Source of the DNA: Gammaproteobacteria bacterium
Lineage (GTDB): Bacteria > Pseudomonadota > Gammaproteobacteria > Pseudomonadales > Azotimanducaceae
Length of the DNA stretch: 64,000 bases
Reading direction: 5' to 3'
Assembly (NCBI GenBank): GCA_021773565.1
Contig: JAJFJZ010000009.1
Coordinates: 248,001-312,000, forward strand
Notes under the pieces: generated by a model
The model's database searches: none
Told to the model about the DNA's origin: nothing
What the model saw: the letters and a program-made list of their open reading frames with translations, nothing else
Part shown: piece by piece, positions 4,449-19,431 of the stretch
Numbering within the stretch: the first letter of the stretch is position 1
How the letters are laid out: the number at the start of each line of letters is the position of its first letter
Program-made: the position numbers and the translations under genes

Positions 4449-4471
4449 GAAAAGGGGTCAGGTTCAATTTT
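4449..4471 (+). repeat. REP unit overlapping the transposase 3' end
   Basis: GAAAAGGGGTCAGGTTCAAT matches the REP core. The minus-strand TGA of the transposase gene (4466-4464) lies inside this unit, so the repeat supplies the stop codon. Confidence 0.85.
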
Positions 4472-5159
4472 CCCCCTCGTTTTTTGGTCGACCCCTTGGT
4501 TTTAATCCAACCGACTGACCCACGAGTTCCTCGATTCGTTTCTGAAACCTTTTAGTCCCAAGCACCTTCCCTTGATTGATATGAGCACGAATGTTCAAGA
4601 CTTCGCTTTCACTTAGTGAATTGCAGAGTAAAGCCTGATAGCTACTTAGTCTTGAACCAGGATCTTTGCCAAGCTCTAGAAAGACCGCGTGTGGGCTGAC
4701 TATCGGATCAGGTTTCCCAAATGCATTGGCCCTTGCGCTAGACCACGGATAGTCTTCGGCGCGAGGCACCATATGTGCTCTCACGGGGTTTAATTCAATG
4801 TACCGGTAGCAGGTCAACAGATAGCTTTCCGAATCAACGAGGCTGGATTTGAATCGCCCTTCCCAGAGCGTACCGGTTCGACTATATCGATTGTTGAAGT
4901 ATTGAACGTATCGTCGACCCAATGCCTGCATCATTGTGGAACTACATCCAGGTTGCCCACCTGTCACTAGCAGGTGGACGTGGTTGGTCATAAGGACGTA
5001 CGCGTGTATTTGGCAGTTATGTTTAATGGCGACTTTTTGCAAAGCAGAGAGATAAAATCGCCTGTCCTCATCTGCGGCAAAGCAAGCAGAGCGGTCAACA
5101 CCACGCTGGATGAGGTGTTGCGCTACACCCGCTACATCAATTCGGGGTTGTCGAGCCAT
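4464..5159 (-). CDS. REP-associated tyrosine transposase (RAYT, Y1_Tnp / IS200-like)
   Basis: The 231-residue protein starts MARQPRIDVAGVAQHLIQRG, the usual RAYT opening. It has the HUH metal-binding motif H60-V-H62 in MTNHVHLLVT and the downstream RRYVQYFNNRYSRTGTLWEGRFKS-type segment (about 82-105), which holds the candidate catalytic tyrosine. YIELNPVRA and YPWSSA, also typical, follow at about 125-145. Family members cut and rejoin single-stranded DNA at REP hairpins. All catalytic features look intact and there is no frameshift. The short C-terminal tail ends in GEN, read through into the REP unit. Confidence 0.93.
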   Translation of the reverse strand: MARQPRIDVAGVAQHLIQRGVDRSACFAADEDRRFYLSALQKVAIKHNCQIHAYVLMTNHVHLLVTGGQPGCSSTMMQALGRRYVQYFNNRYSRTGTLWEGRFKSSLVDSESYLLTCYRYIELNPVRAHMVPRAEDYPWSSARANAFGKPDPIVSPHAVFLELGKDPGSRLSSYQALLCNSLSESEVLNIRAHINQGKVLGTKRFQKRIEELVGQSVGLKPRGRPKNEGEN

Positions 5160-11045: not shown

Positions 11046-12869
11046 GTGACCGAAAGAGAAAAGATTGGTAAGTATGAAATCGTCTCGGAGCTTGGCCGGG
11101 GGGGTATGGGTGTCGTATACAAAGCCTGGGAGGAAAGTCTTCAGCGATTTGTGGCGATCAAGATGCTGGGCGATCAACTCACCCATGATGAGGTTGTGGT
11201 ACAGAGATTTCTGCGAGAAGCACGAGCAGTTGCAGATCTGAATCACCCTAATGTCGTACAGGTCTTTGCCGTAGACACACACAAAGGTCGCCCCTATTTC
11301 GCCATGGAATACGTCGAGGGTGAGTCCCTGACTGAGTTAATTCGAACCTCCCACCGTGTCGATCCCCATCGCGCTGTGCAGTTGCTCAAAGAAGCAGCAG
11401 CCGGTCTTGCCGCCTCACACGCCAAGGGCGTGGTGCATCGTGACATCAAGCCCGACAACATCATGTTAACCAAACACGGCGGTGTAAAAGTCGTAGATTT
11501 CGGGGTCGCAAAAATCGACGACCCGGACTCGAAACTTACCGCCACGGGCATGGCCGTGGGGACTCCCAATTACATCTCACCAGAGGTTTGCCTCGGCAAG
11601 GAGGTGGATGCACGCTCGGACCTGTTCTCTCTTGGCATCGTGTTTTTCGAAATGTTGGCGGGAGAGACACCTTTTCATGCCGACAGCCCTATCGCGATGA
11701 TGACCGCTGTGGTTAACGCGGAAATACCGGATATCACCACCCTGAATTCAGAAGTAGATGAGCACATCCGCCTGATTCTGGGGCAGATGCTGGAGAAGAA
11801 CCCGGCCAGACGTTACGCAGGATGCCAGAAGTTGGTTGAGGACCTTGAGTCTTACGCTGCGGGCCAGCCTCCCGCGCATGCCATTGCGGCCGTCAACGAC
11901 GCCACGCTACAAATGCCGCTCCCCGGGAACATAAAGACTGCGGAAACGAAAACAACGCCTACGGTCACCGCTCAACGCAGAGATGGCTCATCCATGAGCA
12001 TGACGCGATGGGCATTAGCGTTGTTGCTCCTGGTAAGCACGGGTGCTGCTGCCTGGTATCTGTATGACGGAAATGGTGGATTTAACGGCCAAGCCCCAGC
12101 GGATTTACTGGCCACCGGTGGACCCCGGGTAGAAAACCAATTGGCGAAGGAGGCTCAGCCAAAAGAAAGCGAATCACAAGCCCGACCGATCGAAACAAAT
12201 CCAGAGGCTGCCGATTCCAGAGCACCTGTAAAAACAACAGAACAGTTAGCGAGAGAGCTGAACACTCAGCCTTCTACCGGGCAAGACTCCGGATTCACAA
12301 ATACACCCGTTGTGAGCATCGACACAAAACCGGCTGAGACTGCCCTGGCTAGTAAGCCAACAGAGCTAGCAATGCTAAATCCAGCGGCGCAACCCGGGCC
12401 CCAGGTTAACGCTCAAAACAGGCTGATTACCGGGCCCCCAAAATTGGTTGTCATTGCAAAAGGTGATCCGGCAGTTTCGACTATGATCGAAAGCGTACTG
12501 GAAAACACTTTGTCAGCCGCGGATTTTACCGTGATGGATGAACAGTTTTTTGAAGGGTTAGGCCGGAACAGGTCCAATCTTAGCCTGGCCGACATAGGAC
12601 GAGCGGTTCATGCCAACGGCGCCGATGTTCTGGTGTTTGCCGATATTCGTCCCGCCGGAGAGCGCAAGCTATCGTTTTACGGCCGCACAGAATATCAAAA
12701 AACTGCAAACATGCGGGTCAGGGCCGTTCTCCTGGCAGAAAAACGCAGTCTGGGAGCACCGTGGGTGAACAGCCTGGAATACGTCCCCCTGAATGCCCAG
12801 GACCAGGCCCGCGATGCAGCCCAACCCATCGCCGACGAACTTGTGGAACGCCTGCAAGCTTTACCATAG
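11046..12869 (+). CDS. Membrane Hanks-type Ser/Thr protein kinase with C-terminal extracytoplasmic domain
   Basis: The start is GTG at 11046 with GAGAAG just upstream; the ATG at 11044 is out of frame and meets TGA at once. The kinase domain (about 8-275) is complete: GRGGMGVVYKA (18-27), catalytic Lys39 in VAIKML, HRDIKPDN (131-138), DFG (151-153), GTPNYISPE in the activation loop. A Pro/Thr/Glu-rich stretch surrounds one transmembrane helix (about 320-340, WALALLLLVSTGAAAWYLY). A C-terminal domain of about 140 residues (KLVVIAKGDPAVSTMIESVL ... NGADVLVFADIRP) would be periplasmic. The pattern 'V-I-A-x-G, extended pair, GADVLVFADI' resembles the alpha/beta fold of LpoB/CsgG-N proteins. A signal-sensing role linked to the divergent CsgG-family gene is inference. 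Confidence 0.9.
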   Translation: MTEREKIGKYEIVSELGRGGMGVVYKAWEESLQRFVAIKMLGDQLTHDEVVVQRFLREARAVADLNHPNVVQVFAVDTHKGRPYFAMEYVEGESLTELIRTSHRVDPHRAVQLLKEAAAGLAASHAKGVVHRDIKPDNIMLTKHGGVKVVDFGVAKIDDPDSKLTATGMAVGTPNYISPEVCLGKEVDARSDLFSLGIVFFEMLAGETPFHADSPIAMMTAVVNAEIPDITTLNSEVDEHIRLILGQMLEKNPARRYAGCQKLVEDLESYAAGQPPAHAIAAVNDATLQMPLPGNIKTAETKTTPTVTAQRRDGSSMSMTRWALALLLLVSTGAAAWYLYDGNGGFNGQAPADLLATGGPRVENQLAKEAQPKESESQARPIETNPEAADSRAPVKTTEQLARELNTQPSTGQDSGFTNTPVVSIDTKPAETALASKPTELAMLNPAAQPGPQVNAQNRLITGPPKLVVIAKGDPAVSTMIESVLENTLSAADFTVMDEQFFEGLGRNRSNLSLADIGRAVHANGADVLVFADIRPAGERKLSFYGRTEYQKTANMRVRAVLLAEKRSLGAPWVNSLEYVPLNAQDQARDAAQPIADELVERLQALP

Positions 12870-12881
12870 GCGAAAAAAGGC

Positions 12882-12907
12882 AAAAAAAGGGGTCAGGTTC
12901 AATTTAG
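12882..12907 (+). repeat. REP unit downstream of the kinase gene
   Basis: AAAAAAAGGGGTCAGGTTCAATTTAG-type sequence, the same core as at 3292. It begins 12 bp after the kinase stop codon and has no transposase beside it. Confidence 0.85.
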
Positions 12908-13034
12908 GCCATCACTACTATCCAACGAGTCTATATTGGGGCGATACGGGTGCCGATAAGGCGTTTTGGAGTGACGCCATCCTCACACAATGGTAAAATG
13001 CCAAATTGGTAAAATTAAGGCGAAGGCCCTACAC

Positions 13035-15212
13035 ATGAGTCAATATCTGGATAAATCCGGGCTGCAGGTCCACACGCTTCTAAGCGACCTGCTCAATAAC
13101 GAAATTCTGCCCGGTCTTGAACTTGATTCTGATCATATCTGGCAAGAATTTCGTAAACTGGTCGATGAACTGACTCCTGTAAATCGCCAACTGCTTGCAA
13201 AGCGTGAGAGCATTCAGGAAAAAATTGATCAATGGCACGCCCAAAACCCCGATGTAGTCCGAACTGACTTTGCACGTTATAAAGCATTCCTGGTCGAGAT
13301 CGATTACCTGGTACCAGAAGGCCCTGAATTTGCTATCAGTACAGAAAATGTTGATGTGGAAATTGCCTCGATAGCGGGCCCGCAGCTTGTTGTACCCGTG
13401 AACAATGCGCGCTTTGCCCTGAATGCGGCCAACGCTCGCTGGGGTAGCCTGTATGATGCTTATTACGGTACCGATGTGATCAGTGAAGACGATGATTGTG
13501 GACGCACCGGGCCATACAACGAGAAGCGCGGGCAGAAGGTAATCGCAAAAGCTGCGGATTTTCTGGATGGTGCGATACCCCTGGCTGGAGGTGCCAGCCA
13601 TTCCACAGTGGTTGAGTATGAAATCACCGCCGATTCACCAGCACGATTAAATGCCCGCTTGTCTGATGATTCAGTCGTCCCCCTGGTAGACGCGGATAAA
13701 TTTGTGGCTTATCAACTGAATGACAAACAAAAGGTATTGCTGTGCAGAAACAATGGTCTGCATATAGAAATCCACATTGACAGAAATAGTAGTGTAGGCA
13801 GCACTAATCCTTCGGGTGTGAGTGACGTGGTGCTGGAATCTGCCGTAAGCACCATTCAGGACTGTGAAGACTCTGTTGCGGCGGTTGATGCGGAAGATAA
13901 AGCGCTGGTTTATCGTAACTGGCTGGGACTTATGCGGGGAGATCTTGAGGATAGCTTCGAAAAAGGCGGCCGAATAATGACGCGACGCCTGAATGCGGAC
14001 AGAGCCTATATCAGTGTAGACGGCAGTGAACTTACTTTGCACGGAAGAAGCTTACTGCTGGTTCGCAATGTTGGTCACCTGATGACCAACAGCGCGATTC
14101 TTGATAGCGAGGGTAACGAGGTACCCGAAGGTTTTATCGACGCACTATTTACCACGCTGTGCGCGATGCATGATTTCAAAGACGACGCCCCATTGCACAA
14201 TAGTCGGACCAAGAGTGTTTACATAGTAAAACCCAAAATGCACGGTCCCGAAGAAGTTGCCTTTGCGGACCGATTATTTGGTGCTGTTGAAAAAATTCTG
14301 GGTCTACCCACTGCTACCATGAAAATTGGCGTCATGGATGAAGAGCGTCGCACTACCGTCAACCTGAAGGAATGCATTCGTGCGGTGAAAGACCGCCTGG
14401 TATTCATCAACACCGGCTTTCTGGATAGAACCGGCGACGAAATTCATACTTCCATGCAGGCAGGTCCTATGCTGCCTAAAGATGATATCAAGCAGCAGGC
14501 CTGGATCAGCGCTTACGAAAACTGGAATGTAGATATCGGCTTGCAGACGGGTTTGCCTGGAAAAGCACAAATCGGTAAAGGCATGTGGGCTAAGCCTGAT
14601 GAAATGCAACAAATGCTGGATACAAAACTGGATCACCTGAATGCAGGTGCAAATTGCGCATGGGTGCCTTCGCCAACTGCGGCTACATTACATGCAACAC
14701 ACTATCATCAGGTGAATGTATTTTCCGTACAACAGGCTTTAAGGCAGCGCGAAAAAGCCAATGTAGATGATATATTGACCCCGCCATTACTGGGTGAGCG
14801 CAAGCTTGGCAGCGCTGAAATTCAGCGTGAACTCGACAACAATGCACAGGGCATTCTTGGTTACGTGGTGCGCTGGGTAGAGCAGGGCGTTGGCTGCTCG
14901 AAGGTACCGGATATTAATAATGTGGGGCTAATGGAAGATCGCGCCACGTTGCGTATTTCCAGCCAGCACATTGCCAACTGGCTGCACCACGACATCTGTT
15001 CTGCAGCACAGATTACTGAAACCCTGCAGCGTATGGCTGCCGTTGTGGACGAACAGAATGCCGGTGACCCGCTGTATCACAATATGGCACCCAACTTTGC
15101 ACAAAGTGTTGCCTTCCAGGCTGCCAGCGACCTGGTATTTAAAGGTGTGGAGCAGCCAAGTGGTTACACCGAACCTCTGCTGCATGCATTTCGAGTGCAG
15201 GCAAAGGTGTAA
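13035..15212 (+). CDS. glcB: Malate synthase G
   Basis: The enzyme condenses glyoxylate with acetyl-CoA to malate and serves glycolate or acetate use. I start at the ATG at 13035 ([16 protein letters not shown]), giving 725 residues, close to the E. coli GlcB length; upstream starts add an atypical extension. Diagnostic segments are [107 protein letters not shown] and the C-terminal [13 protein letters not shown]. No isocitrate lyase is in the window. A second, diverged copy of the last 62 bp lies at 16726-16787, beyond the GGEEF gene. Confidence 0.96.
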
Positions 15213-15375
15213 GAAGCAATCAACCGCTGATTAACAGTGGGATCGCCCCGACAATTGAGTCACGGTTGCTGCAGGTAAATGTGCGGTGCCCAACAAGTTT
15301 GATTCGGGGCGATTTCCCAATCCAGTAGATCTGCACGGTTGATGCCGTCCTTCACCTGCTAATATCAGGGCAACC

Positions 15376-15510
15376 CAAGGTCGAGATTATTGACTTTCTT
15401 GTTAGTTATTACAATCAGGTTAGACCCTAACGAGATTACAAGGTGTTAGCGCAGAATGTAGCAACAAAAAACACCTGGAATGAGTACGAATTCGTGCCCA
15501 ACAAAACTTG
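15376..15510 (+). pseudogene. Possible remnant of a transposase C terminus
   Basis: A plus-strand frame reads VEIIDFLVSYYNQVRP, a stop, then RDYKVLAQNVATKNTWNEYE and a second stop. The YYNQVRP sequence resembles the 'YN..RPH' element near the C terminus of integrase-core (IS3/IS481-type) transposases. No upstream catalytic part is visible, so this is weak. Confidence 0.25.
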
Positions 15511-15586
15511 ACCATGAAAGGGTGGATTGAAGATTGGGAATAGTTTGTGCCAATAAGCATCGTTCCAAGTCACATTCCTGTGAGAG

Positions 15587-15616
15587 CTGTGTAGCATTCC
15601 TCACAATGCTACACAG
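15587..15616. terminator. Perfect 12-bp inverted repeat (hairpin)
   Basis: Arms CTGTGTAGCATT (15587-15598) and AATGCTACACAG (15605-15616) are exact complements around a six-base loop. No T-run follows, so it is not a standard intrinsic terminator; it could be a terminator remnant, an operator or a structured leader about 115 bp upstream of the GGEEF gene. Confidence 0.45.
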
Positions 15617-15730
15617 ATTAACCTGAAATGGTTCACATTAAACAAACTTAACGCGACATCAAGCTCAAAAAGTATCTACTCTTGTCAAAGAACACATGTA
15701 TTTGTTTGTGCAAGTTTATGGATTTTCATC

Positions 15731-16696
15731 ATGCGAAAGCAGCGTACAGCTGAAGAATATATCCTACTGTCACTCAGCGGCATTTTGTCGCTTGCCATAC
15801 TGCCTTTTTGGTTTGTGCGTTTCGCGGCGTCTGAATGGACAATGACTGCGCTGGATTCGTTCGCTATAGCGATCATGATGGCGGCGTTTGCACATGTTTA
15901 CGTTACCGGAAAAACGAACCTGGCAGGTATTGTTGTTTCGGTATCAGTGATGATAATTGTTTGGGCCAGCGTATACGTTAAGGGGCAGGGCCAGCTTTTC
16001 TGGGCTTACCCAGCATTAGTAGCCACTTTTTTCCTTGTTACGCTGCGTCTAGCAGCCGTCATTGTTTCAGTGTTTCTTGTTGCAATGATACCTGTAGTGT
16101 TGCTCCATGCTGATTTGGTTCTAGGCGGGGCTTTTTATCTCACCGTTATTGCCAATAGCGCCGCAGTATATGCATTTGTATATCGCATGCAAGAACAGCA
16201 AAAACTATTGTCTACTCTGGCGATTAGAGATCCATTGACAGGTGCAGGTAATCGACGAGCTATGGAAGAAAAGCTTGTTGAACTAGTAGATTTGCAAAAC
16301 CGCAGGGTTTCCGAAGTCTCACTGATTTTTATGGATCTGGACAATTTCAAAGCAATCAATGATAAATTCGGGCATAGCGAAGGTGACGAGGTTTTGGTCC
16401 AGTTGGCCAAAATAGTCGCGGAGAGAATACGCTCCACAGACACATTTTACCGATACGGAGGAGAAGAGTTTGTTGTGCTTGCTGAAAATACGAACGTCAC
16501 GGGCGTATTAAAGCTGGCAGAGGAACTCCGTACCGCTGTTCAGGCTTGTAAAATTCTTCAATTGCACCATGTATCTATCTCATCAGGTTGTGCACAGTAT
16601 CAGGCTGGAGAAACCGGTAGCGAGTGGGTGGGTCGTGCAGACGCGGCAATGTTTCAGGCCAAGGATGAGGGCCGGAACCTGAGTCGTGCCGCATAA
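15731..16696 (+). CDS. Membrane diguanylate cyclase (GGEEF)
   Basis: The 321-residue protein has about six hydrophobic segments in residues 10-152 and a GGDEF domain from about 160 to the end. DPLTGAGNRRA opens the domain, MDLDNFKAINDKFGHSEGD holds the metal-binding Asp, and the signature is GGEEF (243-247), an active-site form. An RxxD inhibitory site, RSTD (234-237), lies exactly five residues before it, so product feedback inhibition is likely. It makes cyclic di-GMP from two GTP. The membrane part is not a recognised sensor domain. It stands alone between duplicated glcB 3' sequences. Confidence 0.9.
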   Translation: MRKQRTAEEYILLSLSGILSLAILPFWFVRFAASEWTMTALDSFAIAIMMAAFAHVYVTGKTNLAGIVVSVSVMIIVWASVYVKGQGQLFWAYPALVATFFLVTLRLAAVIVSVFLVAMIPVVLLHADLVLGGAFYLTVIANSAAVYAFVYRMQEQQKLLSTLAIRDPLTGAGNRRAMEEKLVELVDLQNRRVSEVSLIFMDLDNFKAINDKFGHSEGDEVLVQLAKIVAERIRSTDTFYRYGGEEFVVLAENTNVTGVLKLAEELRTAVQACKILQLHHVSISSGCAQYQAGETGSEWVGRADAAMFQAKDEGRNLSRAA

Positions 16697-16725
16697 CCAA
16701 CTATTTGCTTTGAGAGCAGACGTGC

Positions 16726-16787
16726 AGTAGCCCAGTGGTTACACCGAACCCTTGTTGCATGCGTTTCGAGTGCAGGCAAAGGCCTGA
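16726..16787 (+). pseudogene. Duplicated 3' end of malate synthase G
   Basis: These 62 bp align over their full length with the last 62 bp of glcB (15151-15212). In frame they read [18 protein letters not shown] followed by TGA, against ...VQAKV and TAA in the intact gene. Most differences are third-position changes (CTGCTG/TTGTTG region), so this is a once-coding sequence and not a recent exact duplication. The preceding codon is TAG and there is no start. Confidence 0.75.
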
Positions 16788-16834
16788 GAAAACAGGCTTC
16801 CACAGAAAACGGAGCAGGTGAAACCGGTTATGGC

Positions 16835-17713
16835 TTATGCCAGCTCTTTTTCGAAAAGTGCCAACAGCTCTGACCAGGCTTTTTCTGCCATCGCTTCGTT
16901 GTAAACTCGTGAATCCGGAGGGCACCAACCATGCAACGTGCCCTCATACACTTCGATTTCGGCATCGACCTTGGCACTGCCCAGGGAAGCCCTCAAAACA
17001 TGCTTTGTATCCGGTTCTTTCTCGTCATCATTTTCAGCAATAGCAATCAGCAAACCGGCTTTGATTTTGGGTGCCAACAGGTGTGGACTATCATCGGCAT
17101 CGGTGACAAGTCCACCACCATGAAACGAACCACCTGCGCCAATACGTGCCGGTATCGCAGCAGCCAGGCGCATAACATAGGAACCGGTCATGCAATAACC
17201 GGTAGTGCCGATCATCCGGGTGGTATCCACTGAAGCCTGGGAATCCAGCCAGCTTACATAATCTTTTCCGTCAGATACGGCAGTAAGCGGTGATAATGAA
17301 CGCGCATGGGGCATTAACATCGCACGGGTTTCGGGGTCTCCAAACGATTTGCCATCCGGGGTAACCTGGCCCGTAACCGTGCGGTAATAGGGGTTAACCA
17401 CCAACACCGAATATCCCGATTGGGCCAGTCGTTTGCCCATGGCACGAAAGGCTGGACGAATGCCCATTATGTCAGGCCATATAATTACGGCTGCATGTCG
17501 TCCGCTTGCCGGGTGAACAAAATAGCCGTCTGCCGCGCCTTCAGCCATATCGATCTTCACGTCCTGCTCAACCACATTCTGTGCATTGGCAATAGGTGGC
17601 AACATGATCGACAGCGTTATACCCGCACCCAACATACCAAACTCACGCCGGGTTAAGCCCTTCTGCCGGGACAAAAACGTCTGTTCTTCCTGATTGGTTC
17701 TTTCATCACACAT
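16835..17713 (-). CDS. Tat-exported dienelactone hydrolase family protein
   Basis: The 292-residue protein has a twin-arginine signal (TRREFGMLGAG, Arg22-Arg23, then a hydrophobic stretch to about 44). An alpha/beta-hydrolase of the DLH type follows, with the nucleophile Cys174 in GTTGYCMTGSYV, DPETRA-type acidic segment, ENDDEKEPDT, and His in GTLHGWCPPD near the C terminus. DLH opens dienelactone to maleylacetate in chloroaromatic breakdown, but this large family covers many esterase activities and no aromatic pathway genes are adjacent. It lies 71 bp downstream of the carboxylase operon, in the same direction, and could be its last gene. Confidence 0.88.
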   Translation of the reverse strand: MCDERTNQEEQTFLSRQKGLTRREFGMLGAGITLSIMLPPIANAQNVVEQDVKIDMAEGAADGYFVHPASGRHAAVIIWPDIMGIRPAFRAMGKRLAQSGYSVLVVNPYYRTVTGQVTPDGKSFGDPETRAMLMPHARSLSPLTAVSDGKDYVSWLDSQASVDTTRMIGTTGYCMTGSYVMRLAAAIPARIGAGGSFHGGGLVTDADDSPHLLAPKIKAGLLIAIAENDDEKEPDTKHVLRASLGSAKVDAEIEVYEGTLHGWCPPDSRVYNEAMAEKAWSELLALFEKELA

Positions 17714-17784
17714 ATTTTTTCACTCGCTTTAAAATAATGAATAATTGCGTCTGCGCTCAAACCTAGAGATCAGTTCCTTAACGA

Positions 17785-19431
17785 TTATAACCTGGCAACA
17801 CCAAATGTATTGGGCCTGGTTCCCCGGTGATTTGTTTCCAGGCTGGTCTCGAGGGTAAATATGAGTACTTGCCTTGTATCCACGGGGTCGATGATCCCAT
17901 CATCCATCATGCGTGACGAGCAGTACATTGCCTCCGAAGAGCGTTCCATAGACGCAATGAGTTGCTCACCATGCTTCTGCATTAGCTCTTTTTGTTCCTG
18001 CGGAATCTGCTGGCCCGACAGGCGGGCCTTATCTTCTGCTATCACGCGCATTACACCAGCAGCCTGAGCGCCTCCCATAACGGCCTGGCGCGCAGTTGGC
18101 CACGAAAAAACAAACTCAGGTTTAAGAGACTTCGAGCACATTGCGTAATTACCTGCACCATAGGAATTGCCAACGATAATGGTAAGTTTTATGGGACGAA
18201 AATTGGCGACTGCCTGGATCATTTTTGAACCGTGTTTAACCTGCCCGGCCTGTTCCGCCTCTACGCCAACCAGAAACCCGGTGGTGTTTTGTAAAAATAT
18301 CATGGGTGTGTTGGTTTGATCGCACAGCTGCAGAAACTGGCTGGCCTTTTTCGCCCCCTGGGGGGTAATGGGTCCGTTGTTGGTGATGATGCCACATCGC
18401 CACCCACCAATATGCGCATGCCCACAAAGCGTATGATGGTCATTTTCCGGTTCAAATTCGAAGAACCTGGAGCCATCAAATACTCTGGCGATGACCTCCC
18501 GCATATCATAGGGAATGCGTTTGTCTTCCGACACAATACCGCGCAGTTCTTCTGCCGGGTACAGGGGCTGTTCTGCCGTCTGGTCCGGTGTTATATAACT
18601 GCCTGCATCAGGTGGAAACTGATCGAGAATGTCTCTGGCGACTCTAATGCCATCAGCATCACTCTCGGCAAGATACTCGCCGGTTTGCGAGATGCTTGCA
18701 TGCATCACTGCGCCACCCAGAGTTTCATGATCTGCATCTTCTCCAGTGGCGGCTTTCAATAAAGGCGGCCCGGCTAGAAACAGATGCGTCTGATTGCGCA
18801 CCAGTACTACATAGTCAGAGAGGGCCACTTGATAGGCCCCTCCTGCTGTAGCATTACCATGGGCTACGGTTAGCTGCGGTATGCCTGCGGCCGAGAGTTC
18901 AGCCTGTTGGCAATATACCCTGCCGCCATCGAGAAAACCGTGCGCACCCCAGGGATCTGGATCACCGCCGCCTGAAAGGTTGCCGCCACCGCTTTCGCTT
19001 AAACAAACCAGCGGTAATCTTGTGCTAAAGGCGATCTCCTGCAGTCGCAAATTTTTACGGGTTGTCACAGAGTTGATGGTGCCGCCCTTGATTGCGTAGT
19101 TCCAGACCATGGCTAACACGCGGCGTCCCTTGACATAACCGATGCCAATTATCAGGTTTCCGCCCGCAGACTCACCTTCCTTGTCACCATTCATGCGCAA
19201 GCCGGCAATTGAAGAAAGTTCGAGAAAAGGGGCTCCACGATCAAGTAGATGTGCAAGGCGCTCCCGGGGTAATAACTTACCCTTCTTTTCCGCACGTTCC
19301 CGGTAGCGCTCTTCGCTGGTCCTTATGTTTCGCTCAACAACCCGAACCTTCTCGACATAATTATTCATAAACTCGACGTTCGCAAGATATGCCTCACTGC
19401 CGACTTCCAATTTTGATTCAAGCTGACTCAT
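17785..19431 (-). CDS. Acyl-CoA carboxylase, carboxyltransferase (beta) subunit
   Basis: The 548-residue protein is a biotin-dependent carboxyltransferase: RERLAHLLDRGAPFLEL near the N terminus, SGGGNLSGGGDPDPWG, HGNATAGGAY (oxyanion region), LAGPPLLKAATGE, NNGPITPQGAKKASQFLQLCDQ, FLQNTTGFLVG, and GNSYGAGNYAMC. The family includes methylcrotonyl-CoA (LiuB) and geranyl-CoA (AtuC) carboxylases. An AtuA-like gene in the same operon favours an acyclic-terpene or related branched substrate, but substrate is not decided by what I can see. Its first 14 bp overlap the alpha-subunit gene, so translation is coupled. Confidence 0.92.
   Translation of the reverse strand: MSQLESKLEVGSEAYLANVEFMNNYVEKVRVVERNIRTSEERYRERAEKKGKLLPRERLAHLLDRGAPFLELSSIAGLRMNGDKEGESAGGNLIIGIGYVKGRRVLAMVWNYAIKGGTINSVTTRKNLRLQEIAFSTRLPLVCLSESGGGNLSGGGDPDPWGAHGFLDGGRVYCQQAELSAAGIPQLTVAHGNATAGGAYQVALSDYVVLVRNQTHLFLAGPPLLKAATGEDADHETLGGAVMHASISQTGEYLAESDADGIRVARDILDQFPPDAGSYITPDQTAEQPLYPAEELRGIVSEDKRIPYDMREVIARVFDGSRFFEFEPENDHHTLCGHAHIGGWRCGIITNNGPITPQGAKKASQFLQLCDQTNTPMIFLQNTTGFLVGVEAEQAGQVKHGSKMIQAVANFRPIKLTIIVGNSYGAGNYAMCSKSLKPEFVFSWPTARQAVMGGAQAAGVMRVIAEDKARLSGQQIPQEQKELMQKHGEQLIASMERSSEAMYCSSRMMDDGIIDPVDTRQVLIFTLETSLETNHRGTRPNTFGVARL

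Follow-up and report, generated by a model that had tools for sequence, protein, structure and literature searches.

Prophages e14 and 21 lie in icd, a housekeeping gene whose 3′ end occurs twice, with synonymous differences, around the insertion. Two kinds of cargo island tied to tRNA genes are described in PMC10872708 (excerpt): tycheposons, which are bordered by tRNA and carry a tyrosine recombinase, and the fGI-2 flexible genomic islands (fGIs) of Methylophilaceae, which are additive and contain recurring repeats of a tRNA-Lys 3′ end. In homology-facilitated illegitimate recombination (HFIR) there is homology at one end and an illegitimate junction at the other (PMC3240628, excerpt). Here we analyse a locus in a 64,000-nucleotide stretch of a draft genome of the Azotimanducaceae (contig JAJFJZ010000009.1, positions 248,001 to 312,000; hereafter “the window”, whose first letter is position 1), in which the 3′ end of the malate synthase G gene glcB occurs twice, on either side of a gene encoding a GGDEF domain. 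On balance, we read the block between the two copies, 15213-16721, as imported DNA that reached its place beside glcB through recombination with a related allele, an event that left the old 3′ end stranded.

Two copies of the glcB 3′ end

An original prediction, made from the letters of the window, held that the last 62 bp of glcB recur downstream of a GGEEF gene. The repeat is real and had been placed correctly to within a few bases: a repeat search returned a direct pair, 15147-15215 and 16722-16790, of 69 nt with 86% identity and a spacing of 1575 bp. A 52-nt motif written over both copies matched at 15156-15207 and 16731-16782 with 0 mismatches (up to 3 were allowed) and had no match in any of 100 shuffles, so a chance origin of the repeat was rejected. 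When 113 kb of the window's contig was compared with itself (BLAST, same strand, E≤1e-6, low complexity filtered), one further direct repeat appeared, which is internal and lies past the end of the window, at about position 72 kb by window numbering. The genome is a 32-contig draft with a stated completeness of 98.38% and contamination of 0.48%; the window's contig (C31) is 343 kb long, and glcB has a single match in the whole genome at E≤1e-50. The locus is laid out as follows.

13035-15212, + strand: glcB, malate synthase G, 725 amino acids, intact (Pfam MS_TIM-barrel, MS_C, MSG_insertion and MS_N)
15147-15215, + strand: proximal repeat copy, the 3′ end of the intact glcB to just beyond its stop codon (repeat search and pattern search)
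15217-15371, + strand: recurring “arm” of about 150 nt, in our reading the outer end of integrative elements or islands that are anchored at tRNA genes (match in genome G106; model R1)
15224-15238, − strand: tRNA-Asn 3′-half piece of 15 nt (positions 31-45 of the tRNA, from the anticodon loop and its 3′ stem), located between glcB and the arm (15 of 15 positions match the tRNA-Asn of G172, G029, G133 and G145)
15587-15616, no strand assigned: perfect inverted repeat, 12 bp with a 6-nt loop, upstream of the GGDEF gene (repeat search)
15731-16696, + strand: predicted diguanylate cyclase gene, N-terminal part of the product hydrophobic (PF00990, 4.3e-41; TIGR00254, 1.6e-45)
16697-16728, no strand assigned: junction of the GGDEF gene with the stranded glcB tail, the glcB homology beginning between 16722 and 16729 (sequence and repeat alignment)
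16722-16790, + strand: distal copy, apparently the stranded 3′ end of a second glcB allele, terminal QAKA followed by TGA (repeat, substitution and tail comparisons)
16835-17713, − strand: dienelactone-hydrolase family gene, convergent, on the right flank, 44 nt beyond the distal copy (PF01738, 4.5e-34)

The distal copy has TAG in place of the Gln codon before PSGY and is therefore a fragment, with a protein-level match from about 16729. From PSGY to the last Lys (51 nt, 17 codons) the two copies are identical at 46 of 51 nt, and all five differences are silent, which under random change has a probability of 0.001-0.003, depending on the transition rate. When the last residue (V versus A) and the stop codon are added, there are 8 differences with 1 amino-acid change (P = 0.0014). 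The rough Ks between the copies is 0.56, estimated from 12.7 silent sites and thus from a very small sample.

For comparison we assembled 135 other glcB loci (29, the best 80 of 381, and 26 from among the 173 that have glcB in a set of 206 genomes of the same bacterial family), in which the same species may occur twice. The best of their tails matched the proximal copy at 38 and the distal copy at 40 of the 51 nt. As the differences between the two copies are mostly silent, most of the divergence would have arisen in two working glcB genes of fairly close lineages. These comparisons support the predicted origin of the second copy from a real but different malate synthase allele, and not from an old decayed duplicate. 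The homology of the repeat ends no more than a few bases from the stop codon, which is what two alleles with different downstream DNA would show. A short motif conserved elsewhere was rejected as the source of the match, since AFRVQAK is encoded by 0 of the 135 other glcB tails.

A recurring arm at the left edge of the block

The arm begins within 10 nt of the glcB stop. A DNA search of the 206 family genomes with 15213-15735 gave one convincing outside match, in G106 (71% over 147 nt, E = 5e-11; G, C and L numbers are our handles for genomes, contigs and loci). The next-best outside match had an E-value of 0.009, and 106 of the 206 genomes had something at E≤1. Weak matches in G133, G182 and G146 proved related on further comparison; other inspected matches (L175, L176, L178, L184 and L185, and places in G006 C14, G181, G167 and G145 C74) were dropped as unrelated or coding. 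Model R1 was built from five seed sequences, the window copy among them, and searched in the family genomes; the E-values of such models are rough. It was found in 19 of 206 genomes at E≤0.01 and, at E<1e-6, at 21 places in 12 genomes, five of these places being the seeds. The window arm, 15217-15371, thus has homologues in other genomes of the family. Copies of the arm cluster: G138 has three in a stretch of 36 kb, and G172 three in 19 kb.

Many arms are preceded by the reverse complement of the 3′ half of tRNA-Pro(GGG), or part of it, and others, the window's included, by a tRNA-Asn piece. The full 45-nt tRNA-Pro half stands beside the arms of G029 and G146, and the window keeps only 15 nt of the tRNA-Asn half. 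Arms at E<1e-6 lie on 16 contigs, of which 7 ended early or had a stretch not read on the tRNA side. On 5 of the 9 contigs read far enough, an intact matching tRNA was found on the expected side and strand: tRNA-Pro at 4 kb from the arm in G013, at 5 to 40 kb from three arms in G138 and at 12 kb in G146, and tRNA-Asn at 15 to 34 kb from three arms in G172 and at 64 kb in the window's genome (C31:327419-327494, − strand). This last distance exceeds the stretches read elsewhere because the gene was found by whole-genome search. On the remaining four (G106 C28, G106 C53, G006 C19 and C2 of the window's genome), no intact matching tRNA was found with at least 15 kb read on the expected side. On the opposite side, the stretches of 15-20 kb that were read in G138, G172, G146 and on C2 of the window's genome were free of tRNA genes, and so are the 33 kb that precede the window's arm on its left. 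Leading up to the intact tRNA-Asn gene of G172, fragments of tRNA-Asn are spread across about 38 kb. Because arms recur beside tRNA-Pro and tRNA-Asn pieces with intact tRNAs on the expected side, we read each of them as the probable outer end of an integrative element anchored at a tRNA gene; such elements would sometimes be stacked in additive islands.

The stem of the window's 15-nt piece is TCAGC, as in the tRNA-Asn of G172, G029, G133 and G145 (four genomes, three other genera). In contrast, the tRNA-Asn of this genome and a displaced half in its congener G001, which are equal over 48 nt, have TCATT instead. This difference in the stem hints at import. G001, the sole congener in the set, has no glcB at E≤1e-50 and no hydrolase or arm at the thresholds used.

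In the 12 stretches around arms for which larger open reading frames (ORFs) were listed, there was no PF00589 match. Beside the tRNA-Asn of the window's genome there is a tyrosine recombinase remnant of 104 amino acids (C31:327038-327229), whose best match is the integron integrase family TIGR02249 (1.7e-33, which falls short of the curated cut-off, as is to be expected of a fragment). In G029 a PF00589 match stands beside tRNA-Asn, on a different contig from that genome's arm. The arms were considered as integron attC sites and this reading was dropped on inspection, because the arms carry tRNA pieces. The arm has no Rfam match at gathering score; a search of three arm loci gave two sub-threshold matches only, one of which is a weak match to tmRNA (E = 0.0046) that falls on G146's displaced tRNA half. 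The literature was searched on islands and integration sites, not on the arm itself, so we claim no novelty for it.

Several further observations concern the surroundings of arms and tRNAs. IS-type ORFs were seen by eye only near some arms in other genomes. At about 7681-10093 of L222 (in the window's genome, C2:71681-74093), a toxin-antitoxin pair that looks HigBA-like by eye stands between two arms; there a tRNA-Pro 3′ end directly precedes the tail of a truncated wax-ester-synthase-like gene (55 amino acids, by eye), so that a gene end is cut at a boundary of this kind for the second time. In the displaced tRNA-Pro halves of L222, L225, L226, L227, L230 and L233, though not in L229 and L232, a hairpin-like other sequence replaces the T-loop, and the tRNA-Asn-type copies in G106 and G172 have longer replacements. 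Recombinase matches in G006, G029, G141 and G146 are open frames of about 330-340 amino acids with a long catalytic-domain match; they lie on contigs without arms and may be integron integrases. Finally, beside the own tRNA-Asn of the window's genome (L257 17157-19277; C31:325157-327277) there are a tRNA 3′ fragment, an AbrB-Doc-like toxin-antitoxin pair and an IS110-like fragment (both by eye), and the integron-integrase-like remnant.

The block carries a GGDEF gene and no recognised transposase

The GGEEF gene predicted between the copies is a full GGDEF gene, 15731-16696. The gene is complete, and its product has the GGDEF domain with the GG(D/E)EF signature by which diguanylate cyclases are recognised; read from the sequence, the GGEEF active site sits within RYGGEEF, and an RxxD motif lies five residues upstream. 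From these features the product is likely a cyclic di-GMP (c-di-GMP) synthase. At E≤1e-45 the protein has matches in 5 of 57 other genomes, at 6 places and with 33-37% identity; none of these 6 loci, of about 3.5-4 kb each, has a glcB tail. Upstream of the gene, the strand 15213-15730 folds better than its shuffles (z = −3.5; none of 100 shuffles reached so low a value), and the inverted repeat at 15587-15616 is a possible operator.

A transposase remnant had also been suggested within the block. The scan covered 10 of 54 stop-to-stop frames (nine from 15143-15897 and one at 16704-16943; very short scraps would escape) and gave no Pfam match at E≤0.1, and no integrase was recognised in these frames. 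The remnant was therefore rejected; the left edge of the block is instead the recurring arm with its tRNA-Asn piece. Known RNA in the block was rejected as well, as no Rfam family reached its gathering score in 12800-18000 (best E-value 3.1). The same fate befell a phage or plasmid source: there was no phage DNA match, and the 5 plasmid records found cover 3-6% of the query, with the matches located in genes whose annotation is malate synthase or GGDEF protein.

Elsewhere in the window, an ORF at 4464-5159 (− strand) resembles, by eye only, a transposase of the type associated with repetitive extragenic palindromic (REP) sequences (Y1-type). A GGGGTCAGGTTCAATTTA motif stands at 12889-12906, upstream of glcB, and presumably is like the sequences found around such REP-associated transposases.

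How the block probably came to lie next to glcB

The prediction that the block arrived by recombination or insertion between two glcB alleles is supported by the five silent differences of five, and by the recurring arm with a tRNA-Asn piece at the left edge; of that first interpretation, the different allele and the recombination or insertion stand, and the transposase remnant falls. In the reading that we favour, the 1.5-kb block would consist of the outer end of a tRNA-Asn-type element or additive island (the arm and the tRNA-Asn scrap) together with the diguanylate cyclase gene, and the donor would be a related lineage that had this block directly behind its own glcB allele. The left junction could then have formed by homologous recombination within glcB, and the right one by illegitimate or micro-homologous joining inside the last codons of the resident glcB. 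HFIR is a known process that combines two such ends. Such an event would leave glcB intact with the incoming 3′ end, and the resident 3′ end, presumably the distal copy, would remain between the GGDEF gene and the hydrolase gene.

Several points weigh against this reading. When the three codons before PSGY are also counted as homologous, the copies have 10 differences with 3 changed amino-acid positions, and P rises to 0.017. A donor arrangement, that is glcB followed by the arm or by this GGDEF gene, was not present among the glcB loci compared. In HFIR products the insertion generally comes with the loss of roughly as much DNA as was inserted, 1 kb on average (excerpt of PMC3240628), and no such loss is demonstrable here. 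The sequence after the distal copy has a weak likeness to an island boundary (P = 0.03 versus shuffles, best of 8 panel members); the idea of a second island boundary there was left unused, as a single match at this P. Finally, the same repeat would result from a mobile element that attaches at the glcB tail.

Such an element is the best surviving alternative, and we consider it unlikely. It would be a small integrative element, made up of the arm and the GGDEF gene, that uses the 3′ end of glcB as attachment site; the two tails would be attL and attR, and the end of glcB would be regenerated with the element's own synonymous version. The layout is exactly the one required, with an intact gene, arm, cargo and residual 3′ end, so that a gene 3′ end is duplicated around an insert. 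The mostly synonymous differences, the end of the repeat just beyond the stop codon and the arm family, which appears to mark the ends of integrative elements, all fit as well. However, the arm retains a tRNA-Asn piece (15 of 15), which makes tRNA-Asn, rather than glcB, its probable usual target; with Pfam, nothing between the two tails was recognised as a recombinase; and a 45-position degenerate pattern of the tail matched no viral contig.

The other glcB loci also speak against such an element. Counting the window there are 136, with at least 1.7 kb downstream in 74 and at least 5 kb in 66; the other 62 are too short to show a second tail as far away as it lies in the window. Within 6 kb, by DNA and by peptide, a second tail was found in 0 of the 73 other loci with at least 1.7 kb downstream. 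The window alone shows one, and recurrent use of glcB as an attachment site was thus not seen in other genomes. In these 136 loci ARAGORN found tRNA genes in 3, and tRNA-Asn in none. The closest glcB protein among the matches listed is 67% identical, and in G011 glcB and a homologue of the hydrolase (44% identity) are convergent neighbours with other genes between them. We give slightly less credence to a broader form of the same idea, in which the arm family would comprise integrase-poor mini integrative elements that are moved in trans and use mostly tRNA-Pro and tRNA-Asn but also the 3′ ends of protein genes, the window's member carrying one diguanylate cyclase gene and regenerating the end of glcB.

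Another possibility is an artefact of assembly or strain mixing, in which a strain with glcB, arm and GGDEF gene and a strain with glcB and hydrolase gene were joined at the glcB tail. A mixed population would put two alleles in one contig, and the genome is a draft. The figures for completeness and contamination and the length of the contig are all that counts against an artefact, which we regard as improbable. More doubtful still is a tandem duplication of the glcB region within this genome followed by loss of most of the second glcB. The same gene order would be expected, but decay after duplication should not yield such silent changes (P about 0.002), and the sequences beyond the two stop codons differ almost at once. 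An ordinary transposon or insertion sequence, with the repeat as target duplication or terminal repeats, is hardly credible despite the IS-type ORFs seen by eye near some arms in other genomes, as no transposase was recognised in the 10 frames scanned and a repeat of 60-69 nt that is coding and diverged is unlike a target duplication.

Comparison with known systems

The locus is a readable record of how a regulatory gene, likely for c-di-GMP synthesis to judge by its signature, was added beside a core metabolic gene without breaking the core gene. The most useful by-product of the analysis is the arm family: within this bacterial family the arm apparently marks where tRNA-anchored islands end, and it could serve for mapping them in draft genomes without integrases.

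The locus itself looks like a recombination scar at the end of an island and not like a new kind of system. We file it under known kinds because the duplication of a gene end is already known from icd. Unlike e14 and 21 in icd, the insert in the window is only 1.5 kb long, and it has no recognised integrase and no known attachment site. Additive islands, too, are already known (excerpt of PMC10872708), which is the other reason for this placement. In the case of HFIR, the cases in the excerpt of PMC3240628 differ from ours, which is inferred from one genome and lacks a demonstrable deletion of the usual kind; on our reading they share with it homology at one end, an illegitimate junction at the other and insertions of about 1 kb.

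Among the tRNA-bordered islands, the tycheposons of PMC10872708, as far as the excerpt describes them, are alike in having tRNA-bordered cargo with a tyrosine recombinase; here the recombinase is only a fragment, beside the distant tRNA-Asn. In comparison with fGI-2, where the excerpt of the same source names tRNA-Lys, the tRNAs concerned here are tRNA-Pro and tRNA-Asn, an arm of about 150 nt stands beside the displaced tRNA pieces, and the window copy is without most of its tRNA piece and abuts glcB. In other respects fGI-2 is alike: in both, cargo blocks are accompanied by recurring pieces of a tRNA 3′ end, and here the pieces point to one intact tRNA gene. Given the additive islands described for Methylophilaceae in that excerpt, the arrays found here are of a known kind.

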